From NCBI RefSeq assembly GCF_022201045.2, contig NC_068559.1, positions 3,260,501 to 3,324,500 of the forward strand: a stretch of DNA of 64,000 nucleotides, in the 5' to 3' direction. Shown here piece after piece: positions 6,378 to 24,244 of this stretch (the stretch's first letter is position 1; each line of letters opens with the position of its first letter). Made by a program: the position numbers and the translations under genes. Origin of the DNA: Citrus sinensis. Its lineage: Eukaryota > Streptophyta > Magnoliopsida > Sapindales > Rutaceae. Under the pieces are notes generated by a model. It did no database searches. It was not told the origin of the DNA and saw only the letters and a program-made list of their open reading frames with translations.

Positions 6378-6386
6378 CAAAAAACA

Positions 6387-6527
6387 GGGCAAAACTATGT
6401 TGCAACAGTGGTATGGTACCACAGTTGCAACCGGCTATTGGATCTATAGTTGTATACTTGTATTAGCAAGATCTAATGGCTGAAAGCAACAGTGGTACAG
6501 TACCACTGTTGCAACATAGTTGGACCC
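6387..6527. mobile_element. 141-bp MITE, palindromic-end family, copy 1
   Basis: The element starts GGGCAAAACTATGTTGCAAC and ends, reversed, GGGTCCAACTATGTTGCAAC. It is flanked by the perfect 9-bp duplication caaaaaaca (6378-6386 and 6528-6536). Each end is a near-perfect palindrome centred on a GGTAC core, so the element is an inverted repeat of palindromes. It has the same length as the copy at 24095-24235. The 9-bp duplication points to a Mutator-type transposase. Confidence 0.85.
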
Positions 6528-7218
6528 CAAAAAACAACGAAACAATAACAAAATATTTAAAAAAAACTTATGATATTAAATAAATATTTATAACCATTAG
6601 ATAAATTATACTAAACAGACATTAACATATAATTTTTTATTTTGATCAATTATCTTATCTCAAAAGGTATCGAAAGAACAAATACAAATGCCACCCCCAG
6701 TCAAATTACTATTTGTTCAAAACCTTGATCATTATAAATTCCACTTTCCGTTACAAGTTCGCACTTTTTCATTACACCTCATTTAATTTTTGTCATAAAC
6801 TTCAAATTTTAGTTTTAAAAATGTCAAGAAACGGAATCGCCCTCCCTCTCTAAACATACGCCTAATCTTGCACAAAAAGACACCAAAATTCAACCGAATT
6901 TGCCAGGAAAGAAATATAACATTTCGATCGTTGACAATGAAGGCAAATAAAAACTAGAAGTTTAATAGTTCTGCGTGATTAATTTTGGCGGGTCAAGTCA
7001 CTGGATTAGTTTAGAAATACCAGAAGGGAAGACTTGCTGAAAGTGACAGGCCGGCTTTTATGTCTAACACATTCTTTCCAGGTCGTTTCCGAAACAGACC
7101 TTGCTTGGGAAATATGAATTAAGAAATTACCATTCTTGAAACAGTTTAGGATTTGATCTGCGAACGAAGTGTTGGGTGACTTTGCTCGCAATGACAACCA
7201 CAGATTCAACACCATTAA

Positions 7219-7488
7219 GGGTGCGTTTGGAATTGAGGTTGGACAATTGTAACTTAAAAATATAACATTAAAGTATTTAGTAAACACTAATTGTTGTAGT
7301 TTAAAAATTATGTTGATATGATTTTTCACTTGTATACTAGAAAATGTATTATATCTTTAATAATTTTATCAAAATTATAATTTATAATTTATATTATTAC
7401 ATATTATTAATTTTTATTTCATAATTATAATTTTTTTTTACAGCAACTGTAACTTAAAAATTACGGCATATCAATTTTAAACAAGACC
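7219..7488. mobile_element. MITE with GGGTGCGTTTGG end, copy 1
   Basis: The left end reads GGGTGCGTTTGGAATTGAGG and the right end, reversed, reads GGTCTTGTTTAAAATTG. The interior is AT-rich and matches, in opposite orientation, the element at 14907-15180. The flanking trinucleotides are taa and tga, so a 3-bp duplication is possible but not proven. The ends resemble a very common plant MITE type. Superfamily not assigned. Confidence 0.6.
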
Positions 7489-7767
7489 TGAGTGGTTGCA
7501 TAGCATAATTCTGTATCCTTATGGAATTTACATGTCTTGTAAACGGGCAGTCACAGATAAAGTTTGGTCAGTCAATGATTCTTCTTGGTTCAGCAACACA
7601 TTTAAACGTAATTTTTTACATTTTTGGTCTGTCAACCCATATAAACCTTTGATTTTTCTTATTCTTTTTTTCTCATACAGGAAAAATGGAAAATAACATT
7701 TATCCAGAAAAGAAGACCAAAAAAAAAAAAGCCCATCTTCTTTAACTGAAAACTCGGTGGCTTTCTC

Positions 7768-7774
7768 TATAAAA
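7768..7774 (+). promoter_or_regulatory. Probable TATA box of the EXO70 gene
   Basis: TATAAAA lies in the context ctctataaaac, 99 bases before the start codon at 7873. This fits a short leader for this single-exon gene. The transcription start was not observed. Confidence 0.5.
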
Positions 7775-7872
7775 CCCCCATCAAAGCACAAGCAAAACAA
7801 AACCATGAAACAACTAACCTGCGTTGCACTCTGCATTTTGCAATTCTCTTTGTCTCATTAATCAAATAAAAC

Positions 7873-9786
7873 ATGCCAGGGAAAGGAATGTCAATTCACT
7901 TCTTCTCATCTCATAAAACGCTCTCTTCTTTGTCTTCATTTTCAAGCCCCCGTACACCATCAACTCCTTCCTCTCCCGCATTCTCACACACATTCTCTGA
8001 AGCAATGGTGGAAGAGAACATAGCAAATGCAGCGACAATGATCAAAAAATGGGATATGAACTCTCCCTCAATCACCAAACTCACCTCTTTGTTTCTCCAC
8101 AACAGAAAAGAGGCCAAAGAGTTCTTGAAATGTGTCAAGGACTTGCGCTGTGCCATGCATTATTCAGTCTCTGAGCATTCAACTTCTGACAAGCTTGTGC
8201 TTGCACAAAACCTCATGCAAACTGCCATGAAAAGGCTTGAGCATGAGTTTTATCAGACATTGTCAAGATATCGAGATGAACTTGACGCTGATTCAATTTC
8301 ATTAGGGCGATCCTCAGACGGGTCATCAAGCTATGTGGGCGATGAGGATGAGAACGGATCAGTAGATGATGATGAGTTGAGAAGAACTGGTGAGACATTG
8401 ACTGAGATGGGGAGAATTTCACAGCTTGCAATGGCGGATTTAAAGGCAATTGCTGACGTTATGATTGGTTGTGGCTATGGCAAGGAGTGTATAAAGATTT
8501 ATAAACTGGCAAGGAAATCAATTGTTGATGAAGGGCTGCATCAGCTGGGAATTGAGCATTTCAAGGCTTCTCATGTTCAGAAAATGAACTGGGAAGCATT
8601 AGAACATATGATCAAAAACTGGCTGACTGCAGTGAAGATTGCAGTCAAAACACTCTTCAGCGGAGAAAAATTTTTCTGTGATCATGTCTTTTCAGCATCT
8701 GACAAAATCAGAGAGGCTTGCTTCTGTGATATAACCCAAGAAGAAGCATTAAATCTATTCAAATTTCCTGAACTAGTTGCAAAGAGCAAGAAATCGGCAG
8801 AAAGAATTTTCCAGCTGATGGAACTTCACAATATGCTTAATGTACTCTTTCCAGAGATAGAATTGATATTCAACTCTGAAGCAACCTCAGCCGTTAAATT
8901 GCAAGCTCTGTCATCAATGCACAAGCTCGGAGACTCTGTTCGAGCTATTATATCTGACTTCGAATCAACACTTCACAAGGATTCTTCAAAAACACAAGCT
9001 GTTGGTGGAGGGATTCACCAGTTAACTCGATCAGTCATGAGTTACATAACTTCACTGGGAGAACATGGTAACATTCTTGCTGACATTGTGGCTGATCATC
9101 CCCCGCCATGCACTTCATCATTTCCAGAATCTTATTTTGAGAGTCCATCCTCCCACAACAGTCGAGGATCAGCAGTCTCACTCCACCTAGCTTGGCTCAT
9201 ACTGGTTCTTTTGTGCAAGCTTGATAGAAAAGCAGCACTATACAAAGATGTAGCTTTGTCATATCTCTTCCTAGCCAACAATCTTCAGTTCATCATCGAG
9301 AAGGTTCGAACATCTGTCCTGAAGCACCTTCTTGGTGATGACTGGCTTTGTACGCATGCCAAGAAGCTCAAACAATATGCTTTGAACTACGAAACCATGG
9401 CTTGGAACAAAGTCTTCTCATCTTTGCCAGAGAGAAGTTCTTCACCTGTACCACCTGAAGTGGCAAAGGACTGTTTCCGGAGGTTCAGTGCAGCTTTTGA
9501 AGAAGCATATGTGAAACAAACATCATGGATTGTACCAAATAGGAAACTAAGAGATGAATTGAAAGCCTCAATAGCAAAGAAACTTGCACCAGCATATAGA
9601 GAATTCTATGATGAATATCGGGTGATACTAAGTGGGGAAAAATTTTTGGAATTGTTGGTGAGATTTGGACCTGATGACTTAGAAAATCAATTGTCAGACC
9701 TGTTTCATAGTTCTTCCATTTTAGGTAGTTTTTCTTCAATATCTTCACCACGCAGCCCAAAAGGATGCATACCCCATCAAAAGTAA
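7873..9786 (+). CDS. EXO70: Exocyst complex component EXO70 (EXO70H-like)
   Basis: A 637-residue EXO70 protein in one exon. EXO70 is a subunit of the octameric exocyst, which tethers secretory vesicles to the plasma membrane; its C-terminal part binds phosphoinositides. The N-terminal 40 residues are rich in Ser, Pro and Thr, followed by the segment with VEENIANAATMIKKWD (about 46-61), typical of plant EXO70. An acidic loop lies near 145-165. The helical EXO70 domain fills about residues 240-615, including LARKSIVDEGLHQLG and HLAWLILVLLCKLDRKA. The lack of introns and the N-terminal style point to the EXO70H clade, but the exact paralogue cannot be told without a tree. The start is the first ATG after a TATA box. 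The gene converges with the pectate-lyase-like gene. Length is normal and no damage is seen. Confidence 0.95.
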   Translation: MPGKGMSIHFFSSHKTLSSLSSFSSPRTPSTPSSPAFSHTFSEAMVEENIANAATMIKKWDMNSPSITKLTSLFLHNRKEAKEFLKCVKDLRCAMHYSVSEHSTSDKLVLAQNLMQTAMKRLEHEFYQTLSRYRDELDADSISLGRSSDGSSSYVGDEDENGSVDDDELRRTGETLTEMGRISQLAMADLKAIADVMIGCGYGKECIKIYKLARKSIVDEGLHQLGIEHFKASHVQKMNWEALEHMIKNWLTAVKIAVKTLFSGEKFFCDHVFSASDKIREACFCDITQEEALNLFKFPELVAKSKKSAERIFQLMELHNMLNVLFPEIELIFNSEATSAVKLQALSSMHKLGDSVRAIISDFESTLHKDSSKTQAVGGGIHQLTRSVMSYITSLGEHGNILADIVADHPPPCTSSFPESYFESPSSHNSRGSAVSLHLAWLILVLLCKLDRKAALYKDVALSYLFLANNLQFIIEKVRTSVLKHLLGDDWLCTHAKKLKQYALNYETMAWNKVFSSLPERSSSPVPPEVAKDCFRRFSAAFEEAYVKQTSWIVPNRKLRDELKASIAKKLAPAYREFYDEYRVILSGEKFLELLVRFGPDDLENQLSDLFHSSSILGSFSSISSPRSPKGCIPHQK

Positions 9787-10235
9787 ACAGTTGGTGCACA
9801 TGATATCAAAAATGTAAGCTCTCGGGCCAATATAAGTGAATGTTATAATTGATACTAGCGTTTTCAGTTCTTTCAAGTTGTTAAAAGTATTTGGCAAAGG
9901 AACCAGTTTCTCAAAACTTTATGTGTGACTTAGGTACTTTAAAGAAAACTATAATAGGACTCATTTAAAATCTCAGAAACAGAGAGAAGAAAGAAAAATT
10001 CTGAACATGACAAAGAATTTAATCTAATTCCCAAAGCAACCCAGTAATTTCATATTTGGAGTTGTGGCCAACGGAAGATATTATTTTAACCAAAAGAGGC
10101 AGCCAATTATAACCCTTGGAAGTTCAATATCTTTTTTTTTTTTCTCCCCTTCTACTGAGAGAAAAATAAAAGCAACAAAGCAGGACATATATATATCATC
10201 ATGCATGCAGTGGGCACAATGAAGATATTGAAAAG
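9787..10235. other. Spacer between two convergent genes
   Basis: It holds the 3' untranslated region of EXO70 and that of the opposite-strand pectate-lyase-like gene. No separate feature is seen apart from a T-rich tract near 10131-10150. Confidence 0.6.
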
Positions 10236-12991
10236 CTAATTAGCTATCATCACATCTGCTGGTCTAGGAATCGATTGCCAGCCTGTACAGATTTGAAGAA
10301 TTTGTTTAAGAGAGTCTGAGGGTGCTTCCATAGTCCACGTTGGATAGTATTCACTCGGATGGAATACACATTCTTCCCCTACCCCTGTCAATAATTGTGC
10401 TTGTGCTCCTTTCAGGAATATGTCTCCTTCTGATCGTATCAAGCCAGACTTTGCCTCAAGCTTGTCCGCTGCCTACAAATACATCCCAAAGGCAGCAGTT
10501 CGAACAAATCAAGTCACTTCCAGTGGGGTAAAACAATTATTTTCAGCAACAACTATAAACAGGAATGTCTTGAGTTTTTTAAGAACATTTAATAAAAGAT
10601 GTAGACAAGAATTACAAAAGACCATAATACAATATGTTCTTAGTCTATTCCGATAGGAGTACTACCCACGTATGAAGTATACATGAAGCACAGGATTCAT
10701 GTTTCATTAAGATAACAATTTTTTTCCCTCTGTTTATTGTAAGCTTTCACAGAAGATGAAAGCAGACAGTAACGGACAAAATTGTTAAATTTCAGGTACC
10801 GCAACAAGAGTAAGATCTCCTGCAAGTGATGGCACCTTCCATGTGATAGTACGCTAACACAACTGGTGCTCTTGATGTGTAAGGACACATTCATCATTGA
10901 TCACTATCCATTGCACTTCTGATTTAAAGGGAATATTACAGGTTCTGCTTCAATTATCTGCATGCTGATACTATAAAGAACTTATGGATTGCATCTACAG
11001 AGATATATTGCAAAATGAGGTAAATGTTCAGTTGAGAAACAAACTCATTAAACCTATCCCTACAGAGACACTACTTAGTGGTACTTCTACAGTCATATGG
11101 TATACTGGACTGCTGGTAATAACACCTCCTCAATTGTACTAAAATTTGCATATTTTTTATCTCATGGATTATGTTTAGTCAGTATCAGAAAAGATAGTAA
11201 AACAGTCGGATAGTTTGGCCAATCAAACCAGTTTAATACAATCAAACAACTTCCTTTCTTGTTGCTTCTAGGAATGCTATTGCATAATACAGCAGCTAGT
11301 AGAAATTTAAGCTTGAACTTGAAACAAAATGCTTAGTTACCATTTGACTCAAATTTGCTACCCAACTCCTTATGCCATTAATAACGAAGAAACATATGCT
11401 AATCCTTCACCATAAAGTCAAAGTGAGATATGAAACTTTAATAAACTGGTTGAGTTCATCAGGTAGAATAATTGAGATGCTAAATCTGCAATTTGTCTGC
11501 ATCACTATCCTCAGTTAGTGCTCAATATGTTCACACACAGAGACCTAAAATGTTTACAAAGAACATAACAAATAAGGTAAAAGAATGTGAATTTAACCTT
11601 CTCTGTATAATATTCAAAAGTCCTTTTCTTTTGTCCTGCTTCATATATATTGCATTGGGAGTATATCTGGTAAACAAAGAAGTGACAAAAAATTTAAGAT
11701 TATAATTTTGATATTAACTAAGAGCAAAATAGCATTCTAGATTAATAACATTGCATATGCTTTCTTAAAAACCCGGGTGGATTATTTACCTGGGATTCCA
11801 CACTTGCACAAACAGCATAAATGCCCCAGTTCCTAGTGTAATTATTGTACAGGTGAACCTTCCCAAATCTAAGGCGTGGATGTCTTTGGCGTGTCCCATC
11901 AAAAAGACAATGGTGAATGGTAACTCGGATGCATCTATCTCCGACATGAGAAGGGTCTGCTCCAATAAGCATTGTCTTGTCATGTTGTGTGAAGTAACAT
12001 CTAGCACGCCAAAGTCAAAATAACTGGTCAGGATTCAGGAACCAGTATTAATCACACTATTAACTCTCATTAGCCAATGAGCGGGGACTAACCTAGAAAC
12101 AGTAATATCTGTGCTTTGCCTGGTAATGTCAATAAGTCCATCATCATAATCACGAAGGCTGCACCGATCTATCCATATGTGCCTAGAATTCGGCTTAATT
12201 TGAATGCCATCAACATCATGTCCTCTACCACCTTCAAACTCAAGATTGCATATAATAACATGTTCACATTCCTTCAATCTTAACCCCTTCCCCGTGAGTT
12301 TAATCCTCTGCCCGCGGCCATCAATCGTCTTATAAGACGACACACTCAAGTAAGATGAAAGATGAATAGTACCCGAAACTTCAAAAACAATCCATAACGG
12401 TTCTTTTCTCCGGCATCCCTCACGAAGCGATCCCGGACCATCATCTATAAACAGGCACATACACAGTCACAGACAATCCAACACGTATATTCTAACACAA
12501 TCACTTGATACAAAACATCAAAAACACTGCTTTTCAAGTATTCACGCAGTAAATGTTTAAATTGGAGTTCCAAATATACTAAAGTCCAAATCAACCCATT
12601 TACAAACTTTGAGCAACAGTATAAAAAAAATTAATTAAAAAAAGGATTTGATTAAAAAAAAAAATTCCAATGCTTCTCTAAATTTCTAAAACGCATAATT
12701 GAAAATCATAATCACTTAATAAAGTAAAATATTAATACATGAACAATCCAAATCCGAACTACAGAAAAATCTAAATTGGAAAAGCGACTGAATAACAGAT
12801 CTGCAAAATGGACACACTGAGATGAGAATGACACGTGTAAGAGTGCGAGAGAGAGAGAGAGAACCGGATAAATTGGTGACGAAGTAGACCAGGCCGTGAA
12901 GCCCACCGATGGCGAACCGACCGAAACCCTCGGCCTGGCCGGCCAATGCTCTCAGGCAAGAATCCACTTGAGCGTACGGAAGCGTCACCAT
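10236..12991 (-). CDS. Pectate-lyase-like / pectin-lyase-fold protein (331 aa, five exons)
   Basis: Exons 12865-12991, 12093-12444, 11790-12000, 11598-11666 and 10236-10472 (minus strand) join in frame with GT-AG borders to 331 residues plus stop. The right-handed beta-helix signature is clear: SLREGCRR (48-55), IDGRGQ (83-88), GHDVDGIQIKP (118-127), IWIDRCSLRDYDDGLID (132-148), and the family's catalytic-arginine motif RHPRLRFGKVHLYNN (199-213). The start MVTLPYAQVD has no signal peptide, unlike secreted pectate lyases, and the usual DHCS is DRCS here. I recall an intracellular-looking Arabidopsis relative of the same length (At3g55140), so the short N terminus is probably genuine. The expected activity is cleavage of de-esterified pectin, but neither activity nor location can be shown from sequence. 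The last intron is 1,125 bp. Confidence 0.92.
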
Positions 12992-14015
12992 TTCTGTTGT
13001 TACTCCGCTTTATCCAGGCTTTACGGGGTAAAAAAGGAGAAATCTCTTGCTTCTTGTTTCGGTTCGCGAGAAAAACGCGGGTCCGGCTGAACACGTCAGC
13101 ATAACTTTTATACGTCATAATTCTTTATCACGGGTAAACAAATATCTTTTATATACAGTTGGGTAATAAAAAAGCGCCTGTCGAGCATATCCCCATTTCC
13201 TAGCCGGGGCCAATCTGGTCGGCTGAATGGTGTGAATAGATTTCTGGTGACGTCTTCTCCATGAAGCACGTAACGACCGATCAAAAACTCGTATCGACCA
13301 GAAACTTGTTATTTAAAAAGAGGGACACGATTCGCCATGTCCCAAATCAATAGGGAGAACACGACGCCCACGTTTGATTGTTGAGACTCGTTAGGGCTCT
13401 TGATCCCCCGAGTATGACAGACGTGAGAAATGTTCTAGGAATACGGAGTGATTGCCTATAAAAGTTGGGAAAATAGATTGAGAAGGGGATACCAAAAAAA
13501 GGAGGGGGGAAAACTCTGACAAATTGTTATGAGAATTCAACCTCATTAAAAGCCTCTAAGGTGTTTTTCTTTGATTCAACGGTTATTAGTTTGCATAAGC
13601 CTAAACTATATATTTTTCCCGAAAACCCTGCATACTGACTTAAGTATCGGATGATTTTCGCCGGAAAAATCACCGGCACCTCTGATTTGTTTCTATGAGC
13701 GTAGGTCACGAAGGAAGAGGGTGGTTGATTTGAGTCTCTGGGGTTCGTGTAATTGAGAAGGCGTTGGGAGTGCACTATTTCAGTCATTGTCAGTATAAAC
13801 GTTGTTGAGATAATTTGGCCGGGCAAAGTAAAGGACGACCAGATTTCAGTATCAACACATATTGATAAGAAATTTTTCTTTTTTTTTCTTTTTCTTTTTC
13901 TTTTTTCTTTTTTCTTTTTAACATATTTATCAGCATGAAATTGCATATTACACACTCAAATCTAACTACACTAACCCAATTCAAACCCCTCTCCAGGAAT
14001 GCCCCAAGTTGCATA
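12992..14015. other. Upstream region of the pectate-lyase-like gene; no other gene
   Basis: The first few hundred bases are less AT-rich and hold the leader and promoter of the minus-strand gene. A pyrimidine tract made of T runs and single C lies at about 13867-13920. Frames that cross it are Lys- or Phe-rich artefacts. Confidence 0.5.
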
Positions 14016-14024
14016 TATCTTATA

Positions 14025-14175
14025 GGGTTCGGCTATGTTAGAATCGTTTTAAGATAGAACACTCCTTCGTAACCATAAGATTAAAATTATAATGAGTTTT
14101 TTTATCACTTATCACTTTGCGTGTGTGGCTGAAATTCGTACTCTACTGTAAATTAGTTCCAACATAACCATAACC
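14025..14175. mobile_element. 151-bp MITE with 9-bp target-site duplication
   Basis: The ends are GGGTTCGGCTATGTTAGAA and, reversed, GGTTATGGTTATGTTGGAA. The perfect 9-bp duplication tatcttata flanks it (14016-14024 and 14176-14184). The TATGTT core of the terminal repeat is shared with the palindromic-end MITEs, so the two groups may use the same transposase. No coding capacity. Confidence 0.8.
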
Positions 14176-14229
14176 TATCTTATAATACATCCAGTCAAAA
14201 ATTTTTGATTTATTCATTTTAGATCATTA

Positions 14230-14383
14230 TAACACAAGACTACTATAAAGAGTATACATATATATTAGTAGAATAGATGAACTCTATAGATTTAGATATA
14301 TCAAGAACCACCTCTTCATTTGGTCTCACCTCCCTTTTCCAAATTTGAGGGAAGGTAACTTTTTTTATAGTAGTCTTGTGTTA
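14230..14383. repeat. Short hairpin element with 20-bp arms
   Basis: taacacaagactactataaa at 14230-14249 is the exact reverse complement of 14364-14383. The loop is about 114 bp. With TA at both outer ends it could be a Stowaway-type MITE, but the arm sequence is not the usual Stowaway one. Confidence 0.55.
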
Positions 14384-14832
14384 CATGTGGGTGGTAACTT
14401 TTTTTCAATTTCGAAGCTAATTTTTAGACTATCAAGCTCCCTCATCGCCATTGTGTTGATCAGAACTAGTTTTGGTAGAACTATTGAGTAGAGAAGGAAA
14501 GCGATAGAAACAAAACTTAATTTTCTTAAAGAGAAAAATTGTATTAATGATAATAAAAATAACTGTCTTTTACACCTAACTTAAATAAATGTGAATTTAT
14601 TAGAACAGGCAAACACAACTTATTTTTATATAATAAAGTTATACTTACTCAAATAAAGTGACAAAAAATTGGAACTTAGACCTGAGTTCCCAAGAAAATA
14701 AGATAAATTTCAATTAACATAAATAAAATATGAACAAGACCTATAGAAACTTCGTTTTCCGTAATAAATATTTGTATTTGTATTCTACTTCCAGCCTTTC
14801 ATTCCCTTAGGTTTTGCTTTAATTTTTTTTTT

Positions 14833-14874
14833 ATAGAAAAAGGGGCTTTATTCATAGAAAAAGGGGCTTTATTC
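14833..14874. repeat. 21-bp perfect tandem duplication
   Basis: A unit beginning atagaaaaaggggc occurs twice head to tail, at 14833-14853 and 14854-14874. Probably replication slippage. Confidence 0.8.
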
Positions 14875-14906
14875 AATATTAGTGGAAAATCAAATAAAAG
14901 AATGAA

Positions 14907-15180
14907 GGTCTCATTTGAGATTAAGGTGCTACAACTTTTAAGTTACAACGACTGTGGAAAAAAAATTTTAACTATCAAACAAAAGTTAATAATATGTAGT
15001 GAATATTAAATTTTAAATAATAATTTTAATAAAATTATTAAAAATATAATAGATTTTTTATTATACGAGTGAAAAATCATATCAACATAACTTATAAGTT
15101 ATAGCAGCTAGTGTTTGCTAAACACTTTAATGCTGCAGCTTTTAATCTACACATGCCCAATCTCAATCCCAAACGTACCC
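14907..15180. mobile_element. MITE with GGGTGCGTTTGG-type end, copy 2 (opposite orientation)
   Basis: The right end, reversed, reads GGGTACGTTTGGGATTGAG and the left end reads GGTCTCATTTGAGATTAAG. The interior matches 7219-7488 reversed, including 'gttgatatgatttttcac'. The trinucleotide gaa stands on both sides. Confidence 0.65.
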
Positions 15181-15920
15181 GAAGTCACTTGAGTTTACTG
15201 TGACAAATGTTGCATGTGTCATATTCTGTCGTGTTCATAAGTATACCGGGCAACTAGGAAAATATATTATCCCTAAAGATTTTATACAATTAGGATTAGT
15301 TTGTATAGAGTAGAAAGTATTTTTTTTCAGAAATAAAACATAAAATTTCAAGAATATTACAATATTTAAATTAGTCATCTAGTACACGATATTTATTAGA
15401 AAAATTTATTTATTTATTTTATAATTTCAAATGGTGTGGGCGTGAATAATGGAGGTTTAATATCTCTTAATTAACGTAAGTAGTATATAAATACAGTAAT
15501 TTTATTCGTTTAACCGCTACATAAAAAATGTCTGAATCTTGAAAAAAGATAAGGTCAAATTTTGGGTGCGCAAGTCTTATTCGCTAACGCTGTGTGAAAA
15601 AGAGTTGAATAATGAATTGCATGCAATTTTTGTTAATATATCGTGTTCATATCATATCATATTTATGTTACCTTGAATTTAGATTAACACGAATTTGCAC
15701 TTGTCTATTATCAGAAGAGGTCGAGTGATGTGATTTATAACACTGACATGCATTTGAAACACTGTCCGGATCCATTTATTGTGGTGGTTGAGTCTCTGCG
15801 GAACGTCTTTTACTAGCTAGAAAGTTTCATATATTGTACAGCCTTAGCGGAACTGCTTGTGATTAATTTTTCAGGAAAAAATAAAAAAGAAAATGAAGAA
15901 GAAACTTAATATCAACTCTC
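15181..15920. other. Intergenic; nothing recognised
   Basis: AT-rich spacer with no frame, repeat or RNA signature that I can support. Confidence 0.4.
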
Positions 15921-15937
15921 AACTTTCCCTATCAATT

Positions 15938-16234
15938 GGCCGAGTGGTAGGGCTGCTGCCCTCCATTAGAGGGCAGCAGTTCGAACCCCCACAATGTATT
16001 GTGGGGTATTTTTTTCTTTAATTAAATTTGAGTGAAGGCAGTCTGTTCTCTTCTCTAATAGTGAGGAGTAGACATTCTTCAAATATTTGAGAGGGTTAAA
16101 ATTTGAGCAGCGCTCTATTAGTATTGATGTAAGTTGGTCCCAGTCATAGTCTGATTTGTAAATATCAGTTATATTATCATGTAATATAAATTGTAATCTG
16201 AGCAATAGTCTCATATAAAATTAAAAAAAAAAAA
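15938..16234 (+). mobile_element. tRNA-derived SINE with 17-bp target-site duplication
   Basis: The head starts with an A box (ggccgagtggtag, as in tRNA-Leu/Ser), has a B box (agttcgaaccccc, near 15978), then a body of about 230 bp and a tail of about 14 A. The 17-bp repeat aactttccctatcaatt flanks it exactly at 15921-15937 and 16235-16251. This is a textbook LINE-mobilised insertion, and the unmutated direct repeat suggests it is young. Its head cannot form a full tRNA cloverleaf because the acceptor stem is missing. Confidence 0.88.
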
Positions 16235-16251
16235 AACTTTCCCTATCAATT

Positions 16252-16992
16252 TATTGCAATTCGCTTTATATTTTTACTTTCACCCTAAAGTATTGCATTT
16301 AATGATTATTTTCAGAGAAAATTTCGGATTATCCAAACGATATAAACAATTTTTTTCATTTTCTTTATAAAAATAGAAGTAAGTTAAGATTTACAATAAT
16401 AATTTGAGAGTATTTTGAATATTATTATTTCAGGAGAGATACACCAAAATTTAAACACAATTTTTCTCCCCAAAGTACATGCATATACTTCACATTGACT
16501 TTATGTGGTCTATTTTCATTATAATTTTAAACAAGGCGTTCAGTAGTTGATAAAGGACTCCATGCATTACTACGTACATAAATGTACACAGAAAATCACT
16601 ACTGAAAGCTACAAAACCAGAGCTTGATACCTTGAGATTGTGTGTGTATGGAAGAAAATTCTTCGCCGGACGACCGACATTTCACGTGAAAAAAATTAAT
16701 TGCACTTTTCATATATGATGGATACTAATCTCCCAACTATATTTTGAGCGACTGGTGTACCACATCAGCATAATGATGTTAAAGATTTCTAATTCAATTA
16801 TTAAGGGGTAAATTGAAGCAGATATGAGTTTATTGATTATAAATAGAAACTATATGTTGCATAAAATTTGTCTCATAAAAAAGTTCAAATTCGACTTCCT
16901 ACGTAAAGAAAGACAGGGAAGTCTAGAGATTTTCTTTTTTTCTTTCCCTCCCTTCTCTCTTTGTCAATTGAGTTATTTTTTTTTCTTTTATC
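16252..16992. other. Upstream region of the KCS gene
   Basis: AT-rich, ending in a pyrimidine-rich leader (about 16930-16990) directly before the KCS start codon. No separate feature is seen. Confidence 0.45.
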
Positions 16993-18375
16993 ATGGCATT
17001 ATTGTACTTGTTACCTCTTTTTTATATCATTTTTCACTTGTATAAGTGGGTTCTTCAGAAAAGAGGCCAATGCTGCTATATGCTTGCTTATGAGTGCTAC
17101 AAGCCATGTGATGAAACCAGGAGGCTTGACACTGAATCCTGTGCAAGAGTTGTTTGGAGAAACAAGAAACTGGGGCTTGAAGAATACAGGTTTCTGTTAA
17201 AGAACATGGTCAGCTCAGGCATCGGAGAGGAAACTTACGGCCCAAGAAACGTCGTTGAAGGCAGAGAAGAGTCACCTTCTTTAGCTGAGGCATTTTCAGA
17301 AATGGATGAAATCATTTTTGACACACTTGACAAGCTCTTTGCAAGAACAGATATTTCTCCATCTGAAATTGACGTTCTTGTCGTGAATGTGTCGCTATTT
17401 TCTCCTGCTCCTTCTCTTACATCTCGAATTATAAATCGCTACAACCTGAGGAACGATATTAAGGCCTTCAATTTATCCGGAATGGGCTGCAGTGCAAGCG
17501 TGGTAGCCGTTGATCTTGTGCAGCAGCTCTTCAGAACCTACAAAAACAAGCTTGCAATTGTTGTGAGCACAGAGTCCATGGGACCTAACTGGTACTGCGG
17601 CAGAGAAAAATCTATGATGCTTTCGAATATTTTGTTCCGCTCAGGTGGGTGCTCAATGCTTTTGACGAACAACATAGCGTTAAAGCACAAAGCAATCTTG
17701 AAGTTGAACTGTTTAGTGAGAACCCATTTTGGCTCAAACGATGAAGCTTATGAATGCTGTATGCAAGTTGAAGATCAACAAGGGCACCCCGGCTTTCGCC
17801 TCACGAAACAGCTAACAAAAGCTGCAGCTCTGGCTTTCACAATGAATCTCCAGGTTCTTGTTCCGAAAATATTGCCTCTCAGAGAGCAATTTCGGTATGT
17901 AATCCAATCCTATTATGAAAACAGAATCAGAAAAAGCACTTCTAGTACTAAACCTGAAGCAGTACTCGGAGCAGGGTTGAACCTGAAAGCTGGAATTGAG
18001 CATTTCTGCTTACATCCTGGAGGAAGAGCTGTGATTGATGGGACTGGAAAGGGCTTGGAATTGGATGAATACGATCTTGAGCCAGCAAGAATGGCGCTTC
18101 ATCGATTCGGAAACACATCAGCCGGTGGCCTGTGGTATGTTTTAGGCTACATGGAAGCTAAAAAGAGACTTAAAAAAGGTGACAGAATCCTGATGATTAG
18201 CCTTGGAGCTGGTTTTAAATGCAACAACTGTGTCTGGGAAGTTATGAAAGACCTGGAGGATCCTAATGTTTGGAAAGATTGCATTGACCGGTACCCTCCG
18301 AAATCGCTTGCAAATCCTTTCCAGGAGAGGTATAGCTGGCTCAATGATGAGTATTTGAGCTTCGTTAGGCTTTAA
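16993..18375 (+). CDS. KCS12: 3-ketoacyl-CoA synthase (KCS12-like)
   Basis: A 460-residue condensing enzyme of the fatty-acid elongase complex. It joins malonyl-CoA to an acyl-CoA in the first step of very-long-chain fatty acid synthesis at the endoplasmic reticulum, feeding wax, suberin or sphingolipids. One exon. The first 20 residues are hydrophobic and suit a membrane anchor. The catalytic triad is present: Cys166 in GMGCSAS, His341 in HPGGRAVID and Asn374 in HRFGNTSAGG. The C-terminal AGFKCNNCVWEV (about 405-416) is typical of the family. The segment FLLKNMVSSGIGEETY and the short N terminus agree with Arabidopsis KCS12 as I recall it (476 residues). The substrate chain length cannot be read from sequence. 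The start is the first in-frame ATG, after a pyrimidine-rich leader. It appears intact. Confidence 0.94.
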   Translation: MALLYLLPLFYIIFHLYKWVLQKRGQCCYMLAYECYKPCDETRRLDTESCARVVWRNKKLGLEEYRFLLKNMVSSGIGEETYGPRNVVEGREESPSLAEAFSEMDEIIFDTLDKLFARTDISPSEIDVLVVNVSLFSPAPSLTSRIINRYNLRNDIKAFNLSGMGCSASVVAVDLVQQLFRTYKNKLAIVVSTESMGPNWYCGREKSMMLSNILFRSGGCSMLLTNNIALKHKAILKLNCLVRTHFGSNDEAYECCMQVEDQQGHPGFRLTKQLTKAAALAFTMNLQVLVPKILPLREQFRYVIQSYYENRIRKSTSSTKPEAVLGAGLNLKAGIEHFCLHPGGRAVIDGTGKGLELDEYDLEPARMALHRFGNTSAGGLWYVLGYMEAKKRLKKGDRILMISLGAGFKCNNCVWEVMKDLEDPNVWKDCIDRYPPKSLANPFQERYSWLNDEYLSFVRL

Positions 18376-19277
18376 TTCAAAAAAAAAAAAAAAAGGTTAA
18401 AAGTTTTTTAAAGAAGCTTCAAGTTCTGTATCTGCTTCTTCTGTTCTGTTTTGATGTTAAGTTTAAGTAAGAGATGCTGCAAATGTATTTTATCGAATCG
18501 TACGTACTCTGATTCCTGCATTTACTGCTACAATAAAGTTGTAGTACCTCAATGTAAAGTTATTAATGCATGGGAGATCTCATGTATTTGTAACTATTAT
18601 TAGATTTATCAATGAATTATATATTGAATTTGAATTATAGTGCCCAGTTCAAATAAACACATCATAGATTTCAAGCAATTCAATAGTAAATATTGAAAGT
18701 CAAGTAACATTTAATAATGATTATCCATCCATCATTGAATTGTTTGAAATTAATGACTTAAAATTTGTGTAAAAAATTTAACACAAATAATTTCAAAATT
18801 ATGTTTATCTATTTTCCAGCTAGTTGCCATTACCTACTTGCCTTATTTGCTTCCGCATTCGTACTAACCATGTTTCTGCTTGTGAGAGCACTGTCTCTGC
18901 TGGTGATCAACCCAAAATTAATTATTTGATCATTTTTTCATGCTTTACAGTTCAAGGTTGCTAAATCTGAAATATTGAAATCATGGAGCAGTACTCTGTT
19001 CAAATTCAAAGTTCCACCAAATATGGACATCTAATCAATTAAAGATTCTGGCGTATTATTTATTTATTCATTGACTCTCCAGGCTGGCTACTTCTGATTA
19101 ATCACCTCGGTCGCCTCATTCAATTTTTTCTTTTTCTTTTTTTTACGGAACAAAAAAAAAATCTTTAACCACACACTATCATCAATGACCAAACTTATAT
19201 GAGAGGAAATTTAGTGTAAACTTCAACAAAAGATATAACACATCTTTAAATTGGTGCAATATATCTGAAATTTCACA
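18376..19277. other. Downstream of KCS; no gene
   Basis: Holds the KCS 3' untranslated region (an aataaa-like motif near 18533) and AT-rich spacer. No other element could be delimited. Confidence 0.45.
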
Positions 19278-19286
19278 TCATAATCA

Positions 19287-19436
19287 AGGTCAGGCTACAG
19301 TGTAATTATGGTACCGTACTACAGTTGGACCATCCGTTGGATCCACTCAAATAAGTGGGATTCACTTGAATAAGTGGAAATTCAACGGTTAGGTGCAACT
19401 GTGGCATGGTACCACAGTTGCACCACAGTTTTATCC
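19287..19436. mobile_element. 150-bp MITE, palindromic-end family, divergent copy
   Basis: A perfect 9-bp duplication tcataatca flanks it (19278-19286 and 19437-19445). One end, reversed, reads GGATAAAACTGTGGTGCAAC; the other begins AGGTCAGGCTACAG. As in the 141-bp copies, each end holds a palindrome around a GGTAC core. It differs from them by many substitutions and 9 extra bases, so it is an older or separate subfamily. It sits 21 bp outside the inverted repeat that starts at 19458. Confidence 0.8.
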
Positions 19437-19457
19437 TCATAATCAATGTGAAATTAC

Positions 19458-20698
19458 TAGCTAATGATAGTTGGACACATGATGATTAACGTTGAAAATT
19501 GCTTAAAATAAAAATTTATGTTTCCCTCTTTTCAATATTCTTCTTATATTTTTGAATTTCAAAAAAAGAGACAAATCATTAATGTTGATATTTCTCTCTC
19601 TCTCTCTCACTTCATATTTATCATGCATATTCTTTTGTTCTCTCTCCAATCTTCATCTCCATTCTAGTGGCTACCATCTTTTAAACCTTGTGGAGAAGAA
19701 AAAGAATTTTTATGATGAAGATGTCACTACCACTGAAGCAGCAGCAGATTTCTTTATGCTCGACGATGAAGAAGTTGATTTTGCAATGTCTGCTACTCCT
19801 TCAATGGACACTGCAGCTCCCTTCTCTTTGCCGGAAAGGTTGTGTTGGATTTATTCTAAATTTATTAAACTTATTATTATTCATATTATTAATGAATTTT
19901 AATGAACAATATTCTATCTTTTTTTACTAGTTCATTTGGATTTTCTTACTATATATTTTTAAAGTTGTTTATCTTACAATGACGTAACATTATCACAGGA
20001 TCAAATAGCAAGCTCTATGGCCTCTCAATTTCCATTAAACCCACTGATAACGTTATTCTTTTATAAAAATGAAAAATCGAAGAGAGTTAGAATTTCTTGC
20101 CCCCAATAAAAAGTGATAAATATTTTCTTGAAAAATAAAATAAAATAAAACCTGTTTGAGGTGTAGTGAACATTTCCATGGAAAAGGCATTCGTCATATG
20201 TTTTAATTAGCAAGAATAGCTAGTTACAGCGTGGCTTTACTGATGTTTTTACAAAATAAAGAGTAAGCAAAAATTATGCCTTAATCTTGCCAAATATATT
20301 GTTAAAACAATCGCAAAGATATGGTGATGAGAGAATCAATAGTTGCAGAATTTTAATTATAGCAGAACAGAACAGCAGCCATTAATAAAATAAAAGTATT
20401 GTCTCAATATTTTAAGAGTAAATCTATATCTAATCCACGTAAAATAATTTCATCACTGAAAATCTTCTTCTCCACAAGTTCTTAAAGATAGCAGCCGCTA
20501 GATGGAGATAAGATTGGAGAGAGAACAAAAGAATATGCATGAGATAATGAAGTGAGAGAGAGAAACAAAAACATTAATGATTTGTCTCTTTCTTTGAAAT
20601 TAAAAAATATTAGAGGGATATTGAAAACAGGGAAACATAAATTTTTATTTTAAATATTTTTCAACATTAATCACCATGAGTCCAACTATCATTAGCTA
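19458..20698. repeat. Large inverted repeat, arms about 250 bp
   Basis: Sequence 19458-19709 recurs as reverse complement at about 20461-20698 with scattered differences. The arms include a CT microsatellite and phrases such as gacaaatcattaatgtt and catgcatattcttttgttct. The 750-bp spacer contains a short coding-like stretch (about 19690-19850, + strand, encoding LDDEEVDFAMSATP), which I do not recognise. No target-site duplication was found. It could be a foldback element or an inverted duplication of a gene fragment. A transcript across it would form long double-stranded RNA. Confidence 0.65.
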
Positions 20699-20724
20699 AT
20701 CTAACGTGGAATCTCATATGTATT

Positions 20725-22175
20725 GATCTTGAAAAGTAACATAAAGTTATTTCAATTTTAGTTCCATTCCAATTTATCGGTAAGAAAACTAACCCTTTGA
20801 CTTCAGTGCATGCATGTGAAGTTGAGTGAGACCTGAGTATAATATAAGGATAAAGATCATCTCATGATCTGAGCACTCTTGATCTTTTATAGATCTCGTG
20901 CTACGTGTATTTTAGTGTTAATGGATTATTAGGATTTTATTATTTTTTTTTAATTTATTAACCACCAATCATATTAATAAAATTTACTCAGATAAAGATC
21001 AGATCATGAGAGGATCATGATCCATAATATAAACACACAAAGAGAACACACAAGTTTCTATGATCCTATATAATGAACAATAACATTATATCTATTTAGT
21101 TAAGATACTTATTTATATTTTAAATGATGTAGTAAATAATGTGTAACTATTTGATTGGTTCAAGTGATAAATAATCATTAAGTTTATCATTTTTAATTTA
21201 AATAATAAATTTATATTAATGATAGATCAGTTGAAATACAAACTAAGTAAATGTAGCATCACTTTATAATGAATATCACTGAATACCTAATTGATTAAAA
21301 GCATATACTGATTTGATCCTCTTCTTTCTTAATTATCATGCTTTAATTACACGAAGAAAATCGCTGAACCGCCTTCCTCAAGACTCAAGAGCTACCAACA
21401 AGTTGTAATAATTATGTCATCAGCCAATCAATACTAGCGGAAATACCAAAACTTTTTATCATTAGTTTCCTAAAATTTAAATGCAATATAATATTTAGCA
21501 TTAAAGATTAGATCGCATTGAATGATATGAAATGTACAGATCGATGTTTCGTAGAAAACTAGATGAGGACAATTAGAAAAGTCTTTGTAACATGTCAATG
21601 TCATGTCGCCGAAAATAATAAATTAATTTGTGTAATATTTGTATAATTTTACTTAACTTTTATGACAATGAATTTATCAACCTAAATTTTATTTTTAATT
21701 CAGATAATTTGATTTCAATATATTTGAAAGAACGGATTTGATAGTTTTATTAATTTTAATTAAATAGTTGTAACAACGATATTAAAACAAAAGGCTTTTA
21801 TGTGGTTTGAACCTTAAATTCCAACACCCACAGGACCACGCCTGTAATTTGAATAATTCATTCGGAGATCTGTGGATACAATCTATTGGATACTTTATGC
21901 CATGTTCGGACTCTTTCTTACTATCTTGCCGCCACCTTTCTGTAACCATCCTAATGAATATTCAGCCAGCAGCATATGTTTTCTTGGTTGCTGTGCTTTT
22001 GTGAAATCTATTCACCACGCCAAACTGCTTGCTGCCTCCATGTACAATCCTCCCACTACCACAAATGAACGCCTCTCACAAAGAGATCAAATATGTTAAG
22101 ATGCTTTTCCTGCAAAATAGACATGGAACAATAAAGACTTGAAAGTCCACTCTGTTAATTATAACAAATATGTGC
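20725..22175. repeat. Diverged tandem duplication, unit A
   Basis: Matches 22288-23540 in the same orientation over about 1.25 kb, for example aaccctttgactt..gtgcatgcatgtgaagttgag and ttatgtggtttga / ttacgtggtttt. Unit A is longer because a MITE (20848-21023) sits in it. No coding frame survives in both copies. The origin of the unit is unknown. Confidence 0.75.
20848..21023. mobile_element. 176-bp MITE with 9-bp duplication, nested in a repeat unit
   Basis: The ends are GGATAAAGATCATCTCATGA and, reversed, GGATCATGATCCTCTCATGA. The perfect 9-bp duplication ataatataa flanks it (20839-20847 and 21024-21032). The equivalent place in the second repeat unit (near 22420) lacks the insertion, giving a natural empty site. 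Confidence 0.85.
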
Positions 22176-22287
22176 CAAGCAGGCTTTTTAGTGTAAAGTT
22201 CAACAACAGAATGTCCCACACCTTTAAACTAGTGGAACAACTGCCTTTTTTTTTAAAAAAAAAAAATAACATTTAGCTCCAAGTGAA

Positions 22288-23540
22288 ATGATCTTGAATT
22301 CATTTGAAAAGTAACATAAAATCATCTTAATTTCAGTCCTGTTCCAACTTAATGGCAAGAATACTAACCCTTTGACTTTAGTGCATGCATGTGAAGTTGA
22401 GCAAGGCCTAAGTGTGCTATAATTATATAAAGAGAACACCCAAGATTCATTATAATAATGTTATATTTACTTAGTTACGATACTTAATTTATATTCTAAC
22501 TAATGTGATAAATGATATGTCATTATCTAATTAATTCAACCGATACATAATTACTAAGTCCTGTCATTTTTAATTCAAATAATAAATTTACATTAGCGAC
22601 ACATTAATTGGGAGATAAACTATGCATTACTTTTTAACTAAGTAAACATAGCATCACTTTATAATGAATGTGATTGAGTCTCTAATGGAATAAAAGCATA
22701 TACTAATTTGATCATCTTCTCTCTCAAATATCATAATAAAGGTTTTAATTACAGGAAAAAGATTGCTGAACCACCTTCCTTAAGATCACATGCTGTAATA
22801 ATTATGTCATCAACCAATCAGTACTAGCCAGATACCAAAAGTTTTTATCATTGGTTTGCCAACGTTTGAATGCGATGTAATATGTAACATTAAAGATTAG
22901 ATTGGCAAATTAGAAAAGTCTCTAAAACATGTCAATATCTTGTGATCACTGAAAATAATAAATTTGTGTAATGTTTGTATAGTTCTACTTAAGTTTTATG
23001 ACTATGAATTTGTCTACCTAAATTTAATTTTTAATCCAAAATAATTTAATTTCAAGATATTTGAAAGATCAGATTTCATAGTTTTATCAACCTTAATTAA
23101 ATATTAATTCAGTAGTTATAACAAGGATATTAAAAGTGCGGAAAATAAAGAAAACAAAAGGATTTTACGTGGTTTTGAGTTCAAAATCCTATTTTCGCAG
23201 GGTCACGCCTATAATTTGAATAATTCATAAAGAGATCTATGAATACTACCTATTGGATACTTATCCAATGTTCAAACTCCCTCTTTACTGTCTTGCTGCC
23301 ATCTTATTGTAACCATCCTAATGAATATTCAGCCAGCACCATTAGTCTTTTTGTTTGCTGTGTTTCTGTGAAATCACTTCACCACACCGAACTGCTTGCT
23401 GCCTCTGTGTAGAATCCCTCCACTACAACAAATGGTCTCCTCTCCCGAAGAGATCAAATATGTGAAGAAACTTTGCTTGTACAATAGAGACAAAGAACGA
23501 TAAAGACTTGAAGTCTACTCTGTTATAACAAGCACAAATA
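22288..23540. repeat. Diverged tandem duplication, unit B
   Basis: Second copy of unit A (20725-22175), starting about 110 bp after it ends. Substitutions and small indels are spread along the whole length, so the duplication is not recent. It ends near ttgaagtctactctgttataac. Confidence 0.75.
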
Positions 23541-24085
23541 ACAAAGAAACATATCACAATATTTGCTCTGTAGTCTTCAAATGTCTGAATGGGTTACAAC
23601 TTCTTCTTTGGTAGATGACCCACACGCTAAGGATCGGAATGAATCTATCCAATAAGCGAGTTCATCTTCGATTTTCAAACATTTAACTTTTAAAAATGAA
23701 AATCATTTAATCTTGCCTTATCAACAAGATGATCATCATCCAATCTTTTGAAAATAACTTCTATGTGTATCCTCTTCATAATAAGCTTCACGTGGTCCCT
23801 ATATCTAATACACGCCGATGTCTTCTTTCTTTGCCCTAGTCGTCATAGCCAGGAAAATAAACTCCTCGTGCGTGTCATGTGATGTTGACTCCACCAATAC
23901 CTTAGTCCTTGAACTGTATCTCTAAATGAACCAAATTATGTTGCCAGCTTCACTTACAACAAAATACAAGAACTAATACACGCAAACTCTAAATATGACC
24001 AAGCAACATAGACAGCTTGCGGTTACAACAAAATACAAAATAACTCACGTGAAAATTAACGATCACATTGAAGACTTAAAATTTT
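23541..24085. other. Intergenic; unrecognised
   Basis: More balanced base composition than the neighbours but no frame longer than about 50 codons. Possibly the remains of a mobile element; no ends could be placed. Confidence 0.35.
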
Positions 24086-24094
24086 GTCAACGTG

Positions 24095-24235
24095 GGGTCT
24101 AGCTATGTTGCAACAGTGGTACGGTACCACTGTTGCTTTTAGTCATTGGATCTAACTAATACAACTGTACAACTATAGATCCAATGGCTGGTTGCAACAG
24201 TGGTACGGTACCACTGTTGCAACATAATTTTGCCC
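24095..24235. mobile_element. 141-bp MITE, palindromic-end family, copy 2
   Basis: Exactly the same length as copy 1 (6387-6527) but in the opposite orientation. The flanks are gtcaacgtg (24086-24094) and gtcaatgtg (24236-24244), a 9-bp duplication with one change. The inner palindromes are perfect: 24110-24136 (13+1+13) and 24191-24223 (16+1+16), both centred on GTAC G GTAC. Confidence 0.88.
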
Positions 24236-24244
24236 GTCAATGTG

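Follow-up and report, generated by a model that had tools for sequence, protein, structure and literature searches.

The 64,000-nucleotide stretch of Citrus sinensis DNA analyzed here (contig NC_068559.1, positions 3,260,501 to 3,324,500; hereafter the window) carries three copies of a miniature inverted-repeat transposable element (MITE) family with palindromic ends. Two of them, assigned to subfamily A, are 141 bp long and lie at 6387..6527 on the minus strand (with the GGGTCC end at 6527) and at 24095..24235 on the plus strand. The third is a 150-bp member of subfamily B at 19287..19436 on the plus strand. For each, 39 further matches were scored in the genome. Identical 9-bp target duplications flank the 6387 copy (CAAAAAACA at 6378..6386 and 6528..6536; 9/9) and the 19287 copy (TCATAATCA at 19278..19286 and 19437..19445; 9/9), and those of the 24095 copy agree at 8/9 positions (GTCAACGTG at 24086..24094 and GTCAATGTG at 24236..24244). 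These are the borders, lengths and 9-bp duplications given in an initial annotation of the window.

That annotation also described a long palindrome at both ends of each copy. In the 24095 copy, the left 31-bp palindrome (24108..24138) has a perfect core at 24110-24136 with 13-bp arms around one central base, and the right one (24192..24222) is perfect over 24191-24223, with 16-bp arms around one base, exactly as annotated. One palindrome of the 6387 copy (6400..6430), read from the sequence with the geometry of the subfamily consensuses, is imperfect; the one beside the other end (6484..6514) has a perfect core at 6486-6512, again with 13-bp arms and one central base. The left palindrome of the 19287 copy (19300..19330) is badly decayed, although intact in the subfamily consensus, and the right one (19393..19423) retains perfect 13-bp arms with seven bases between them (19392-19424). 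The description is thus a better fit to the subfamily consensuses than to each individual end in the window. Across the window there are 31 perfect palindromes with arms of at least 10 bases and at most nine bases between them, 21 of which are AT-only, and the three with arms of at least 13 around one base all lie in these elements. Ten dinucleotide shuffles of the window yielded 0-5 palindromes each by the same count, one with arms of 12. An AT-rich palindrome at 497-544, with perfect 20-bp arms around eight bases, is unrelated to the elements. Among neighboring genes, an Exo70 exocyst open reading frame (7870-9786; Pfam) lies 1.3 kb from the 6387 element, and a FAE1-type 3-ketoacyl synthase open frame (16972-18375; Pfam) lies 0.9 kb from the 19287 element.

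The genome searched comprises 299.7 Mb in 11 contigs. Similarity searches scored the best 40 of 166 candidates for the 24095 copy, of 423 for the 19287 copy and of 160 for the 6387 copy, as well as the best 40 of 257 for a query from a further subfamily, F, described below; copy counts are therefore lower bounds. We projected the borders of the window copies onto 60 copies (L001-L060, 30 of subfamily A and 30 of B, including the three in the window). A perfect 9-bp duplication is present at the projected borders of 40 of these, and 52 reach at least 8/9 (38 and 49 of 57, respectively, when the window copies are set aside). Among mismatched flank pairs, used as a control, only 11 of 11,803 reach at least 8/9, and perfect duplications of other lengths are found in none of the 60 copies for 7 bp, one for 8 bp, one for 10 bp and none for 11 bp. 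Three of the eight copies that fail reach 8/9 or 9/9 after a one-base shift of the border. The duplicated targets are AT-rich, with no fixed TTAA of the kind targeted by piggyBac elements. A second set of 60 loci (L061-L120: 51 stretches around 28-base end matches and nine around lower-scoring element matches) shows duplications of at least 8/9 in 45 cases, but here the borders were chosen partly by the duplication and some are probably spurious. The same choice entered the subfamily F borders, so 52 of 60 is the only duplication count made at projected borders. The initial annotation had named borders elsewhere, or a lack of 9-bp duplications, as what would speak against it; instead, most copies share both features.

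Short, without coding capacity, bounded by terminal inverted repeats, flanked by target duplications and present in many copies, the elements make up a genuine, large family of Mutator-type MITEs that comprises at least eight subfamilies. The perfect 9-bp duplications of 40 of 60 copies fall within the 9- to 11-bp range of Mutator elements, and membership in the Mutator (Mutator-like element, MULE) superfamily is likely. Since no autonomous element with shared ends was found within what could be searched, this placement draws on the duplication and the ends. The initial view of a Mutator-like MITE family built as an inverted repeat of two palindromes is supported.

From the 120 loci, 96 were kept as full length; the other 24, all from the second set, were truncated, nested, or had ends or duplications below threshold. 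Average-linkage clustering at 18% difference gave seven subfamilies with at least four copies, and the window copies fall into two of the subfamilies, A (6387 and 24095) and B (19287). The seven consensuses, 140-151 bp long, share one layout: a 13-bp end, a 31-bp palindrome, a variable middle, and then the palindrome and end inverted. Both palindromes have 15-bp arms and a one-base center in all seven. Two different 13-bp ends occur in the seven subfamilies, GGGTCHRGCTAYR and GGRNAAAACTRTG. The arm reads GTGCAAC[T/A/G]GTGGYAY (its first bases differ in subfamily A), so that each element carries four copies of a half-site of about 15 bp in alternating orientation. Bases common to all seven consensuses make up 9/13 and 10/13 of the ends and 21/31 and 20/31 of the palindromes, as against 2/33 of the middle. 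Likewise, the share of subfamilies with the commonest base is 0.89-0.90 in the palindromes, 0.90-0.91 in the ends and 0.46 in the middle.

Two of the 96 elements lacked the four arms and were dropped, leaving 94 for comparisons among arms. Position 8 of the arm is identical in all four arms of 70 of the 94, and its letter varies by subfamily: read across the four arms, the pattern is TTTT in 58 elements, AATA in 13, AAAA in 12 and otherwise mixed in 11, and the subfamily with G at this position shows GGGA, GAGG and GGTG. In some subfamilies the outer and inner arms differ at positions 6, 13 and 15, so that the palindrome is interrupted there but the two ends for the most part still resemble each other. 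Mean identity over 14 positions is 12.76 between the two outer arms and 12.05 between the two inner arms, compared with 11.54 and 11.91 for the two arms of each palindrome and 11.89 and 11.49 for crossed pairs. Since two arms of one palindrome are no more alike than arms from opposite halves of the element, it is the repeated half-site, rather than the local hairpin, that looks conserved. Paired changes within the palindromes of individual copies show no excess over independence (5 against 4.79 expected, and 2 against 2.55), and slight excesses are seen in the other pairings (for instance, outer-outer 5 against 2.22; inner-inner 8 against 5.43). Correction of one arm by another inside a copy was considered and rejected on the palindrome counts.

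A search of the genome for the palindrome pattern gave 655 places (control 0), of which 100 were listed, and revealed subfamily F, a young 151-bp subfamily that is new in this analysis, with ends GGATCAGGCTACGG and GGATTCCCCTTAGG. Thirty-three F loci were fetched and 30 parsed, with L127, L129 and L142 dropped before counting. The parsed loci comprise 26 elements of 151 bp, one of 150 bp and three of 57 bp, with duplications of 9/9 in 29 and 8/9 in one. Twenty-four F copies are 0-7 changes away from the consensus, and three are identical to one another at three different targets with unrelated flanks. As the loci were chosen by exact match to the young right end, this youth is partly selected, and relatives at 80-90% identity also exist. 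In three F copies (L125, L137 and L141) the 17-bp center is inverted between the flanking inverted repeats.

We consider it probable, with appreciable room for doubt, that these elements are non-autonomous Mutator-type MITEs whose palindromes bind a transposase that acts in trans. Each palindrome would be a putative paired (dimeric) binding site for a MULE transposase, the four half-sites would bring the two ends together, and cutting would take place at the outer 13 bp. By analogy, the dimer-bound palindromes in the ends of piggyBac and piggyBat may lend support to such paired sites. The folds of the single strands could then be a by-product of carrying the half-site four times.

The opposite emphasis, that the palindromes are kept for folding and that cruciforms or hairpins at the ends are recognized as structures in transposition or replication, has a precedent in the similar structural role proposed for bacterial REP/REPIN hairpins. 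Single strands of the elements do fold far better than shuffles (z from -7 to -15), the geometry of the palindromes is constant across the seven subfamilies, and position 8 varies by subfamily while mostly staying paired. We nevertheless regard this explanation as unlikely, given that crossed pairs of arms match as well as the two arms of one palindrome, that paired changes are as numerous as expected under independence, and that the changes shared by whole subfamilies at positions 6, 13 and 15 disrupt the palindrome yet leave the two ends alike. Local arms also lose to a hairpin of the whole element. With DNA energies, the 24095 copy folds into one long hairpin at -47.7 kcal/mol, against -39.6 kcal/mol when the palindromes are barred from pairing with each other, and the 6387 copy gives -42.6 against -33.7 kcal/mol. 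The cost of the bar on plus strands is thus 8.1 (24095) and 8.9 (6387) kcal/mol, and it is 9.7 for consensus A and 14.6 kcal/mol for consensus B; in the decayed 19287 copy it costs nothing. The three-armed cruciform proposed initially is therefore less stable than the long hairpin in both 141-bp copies and both consensuses, and ties with it in the 19287 copy.

A purely historical origin, in which an early element happened to have a doubled, inverted end segment that was inherited with no function for the second arm, would agree with the duplicated (tandem) terminal inverted repeats (TIRs) of MULEs in tomato, rice, maize and Arabidopsis (PMC3310237). The subfamily-specific differences between inner and outer arms also fit it. 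We give it little credence, however, as between subfamilies the inner arms show roughly the conservation of the ends, in contrast to a middle that is almost wholly different. Less probable still is that the half-site is a host transcription-factor site spread by the elements and kept by its function. The arm does contain CAAC[A/T/G]G, which we take to fit a MYB core whose free letter falls on the variable position 8, and 0.9-1.3 kb separate two of the window's three copies from the FAE1-type synthase and Exo70 frames, but the inner arms of one subfamily read CAGCTG. An SPL (GTAC) site was rejected because the central GTAC is not conserved and positions 13 and 15 vary. Several observations weigh against transposase-binding palindromes too. 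The outer and inner arms differ at positions 6, 13 and 15 in some subfamilies, and in 18 of 24 subfamily F copies position 8 is A in the outer arms but T in the inner ones, so one element may carry half-sites that are not all the same. An autonomous element with these ends was not found within what could be searched, where the F right end was followed fully, and MULE domains are not enriched near the elements: 2 of the best 150 of 899 PF10551 candidates scored in the genome lie within 10 kb of 221 loci, making three pairs against 2.2 expected.

The initial annotation had proposed looking for an autonomous Mutator-like element sharing the ends, and the searches, which covered the F right end and the best 150 PF10551 places, did not reveal one. 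Allowing up to three mismatches, the F right end occurs at 35 places in the genome, none of them in an element longer than 151 bp: 31 belong to long-form copies (two known solely from alignments, and L142 lacking a proper left end), three to 57-bp elements and one to a 41-bp element. Subfamily F, though young, hence shows no longer element with this end in the assembly, so its transposase comes either from an element with different ends or from one missing in this assembly. F-like left ends (176 places, 100 of them listed) and the older subfamilies were followed in part. The four loci L085, L087, L093 and L101 each join one element end to a foreign interior and were considered as longer relatives; the two of them fetched at 9 kb proved to be a repeat running past the element border. 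This repeat, at L121 (C4:14774250-14783500) and L122 (C3:28217000-28226250), is 98% identical over at least 7.8 kb and has half an element embedded in it, and its longest open frames (222-227 amino acids) presumably resemble a plant mobile-domain protein.

The mean distance from the consensus is 4.8% in subfamily B and 9.5% in subfamily A, the latter figure being blurred by several sub-lineages. Of 215 changes in B, 178 are C-to-T or G-to-A, as are 231 of the 400 in A, and the rates are similar across CG, CHG and CHH contexts. Such a spectrum, measured on element DNA alone, would be expected if cytosines methylated in every context had been deaminated. A transcript through an element would form a near-perfect hairpin, a likely source of 24-nucleotide small RNAs. 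Sweet-orange MITEs as a class are reported to give rise mainly to 24-nucleotide small RNAs, with peaks at both ends (PMC6466647).

Among the copies are five elements of only 57 bp, three of subfamily F (L135, L139 and L143) and two of subfamily C (L095 and L158), which consist of a 13-bp end, one 31-bp palindrome and a 13-bp end. Their target duplications are 9/9 in four cases and 8/9 in L095, and their flanks are unlike each other (compared over 30 flank bases for L158). Such single-palindrome elements with target duplications are new in this analysis. As the two palindromes of a full-length element double as direct repeats, these forms have a simple explanation in deletion of the middle in place, and their joints suggest that the middle may be easily lost in this way. 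Between L139 and L135, the letters at the center and at position 8 differ, which fits separate deletions in different parents. That the 57-bp elements are mobile themselves, with a single palindrome that reads nearly the same either way serving both ends, is conceivable but doubtful. If this were so, few eukaryotic DNA transposons would be smaller, and the 57-bp form would represent a minimal substrate for the transposase; we claim no record size, and a literature search on the point gave nothing relevant. A lone F right end at C7:5041339, considered as a possible long element, proved to be 41 bp long, with a 9/9 duplication and half a palindrome. We read it as what a deletion between two CGGTGC repeats would leave, and the same 16-bp loss is found in a long copy, L129.

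Two further arrangements were noted. At L159 (C8:1043600-1043900), a tandem duplication of 64 bp has its joint within the left palindrome of a 141-bp element, 1-2 bases before the palindrome center, a single case of the kind that a replication obstacle would leave. On C7, three identical palindrome matches on one strand (10111153, 10113303 and 10115441), about 2.1 kb apart, suggest a tandem array of a ~2.1-kb unit with one element each.

To our knowledge, little has been established about the way in which plant MULE transposases locate their ends and bring them together. Should the palindromes indeed be paired transposase-binding sites, the fixed pair of half-sites at each end would offer a defined and very short substrate for this question, and the 57-bp forms pose directly how little DNA a transposon needs; should they not, the elements are an ordinary, neatly built MITE family. 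Young subfamily F also provides candidates for insertion differences between Citrus cultivars.

In Citrus, 82 Mutator-type (DTM) MITE families have been described (PMC6466647), which share with the present family the host genus and the Mutator-type MITE class and are compared here by description only. One of them, DTM63, is about 150 bp long, has 302 copies in C. sinensis and has been recently active, with its autonomous element not found (PMC6466647). Its size and recent activity fit, and DTM63 may be part of the present family; palindromic ends go unmentioned in the extracts of that paper, with 0 occurrences of "palindrom" (PMC6466647). CitMule of clementine is likewise a Citrus MULE with 9-bp duplications, but it is 6.9 kb long with short degenerate TIRs (PMC4334395). 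The MITE of the CitRKD1 promoter belongs to another family, with a duplication given as 3 bp (PMC6090715) or 5 bp (PMC9671666). Passages of PMC6446971 and PMC10342631 offered nothing relevant to these elements.

The initial annotation knew of no named family with this layout, and we recognized none with this sequence or geometry in the literature on MULEs and MITEs with palindromic ends, in which few subscription journals were covered; palindromic or modular ends as such, however, occur in FARE1, MuTAnT, Muta1 and piggyBac. With a palindrome at both ends in all seven consensuses, the elements have fold-back modules of the FARE and MuTAnT type. FARE1 of Arabidopsis has long palindromic repeats at both ends (as cited in PMC4486113), and MuTAnT of Medicago is a MULE-type element with 9-bp duplications and fold-back modular ends, although at 200-300 bp it is longer, targets TA repeats and has an autonomous relative (PMC4486113). 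Muta1, a MULE of Aedes aegypti, shares 8-9 bp duplications, a palindromic motif, repeated end sites and short non-autonomous derivatives; unlike the present family, it combines a 10-bp imperfect terminal palindrome with tandem 12-bp repeats, and its autonomous element is known (PMC5225508). The tandem-TIR MULEs of tomato and other plants also carry extra copies of terminal sequence, but there the copies stand in tandem, each is 100 bp or longer and the elements measure about 1.3 kb, whereas here a 15-bp site is inverted beside itself (PMC3310237). The ends of piggyBac and piggyBat also contain palindromes, to which the cysteine-rich domain of the transposase binds as a dimer, and the two piggyBac ends share one 19-bp palindrome (PMC11707139); these transposons belong to another superfamily with a TTAA target and asymmetric spacing, so that only the layout is alike. 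Palindromic and modular MULE ends are thus already known, and the Citrus elements are an unusual variant of a well-known class rather than a new kind of element.

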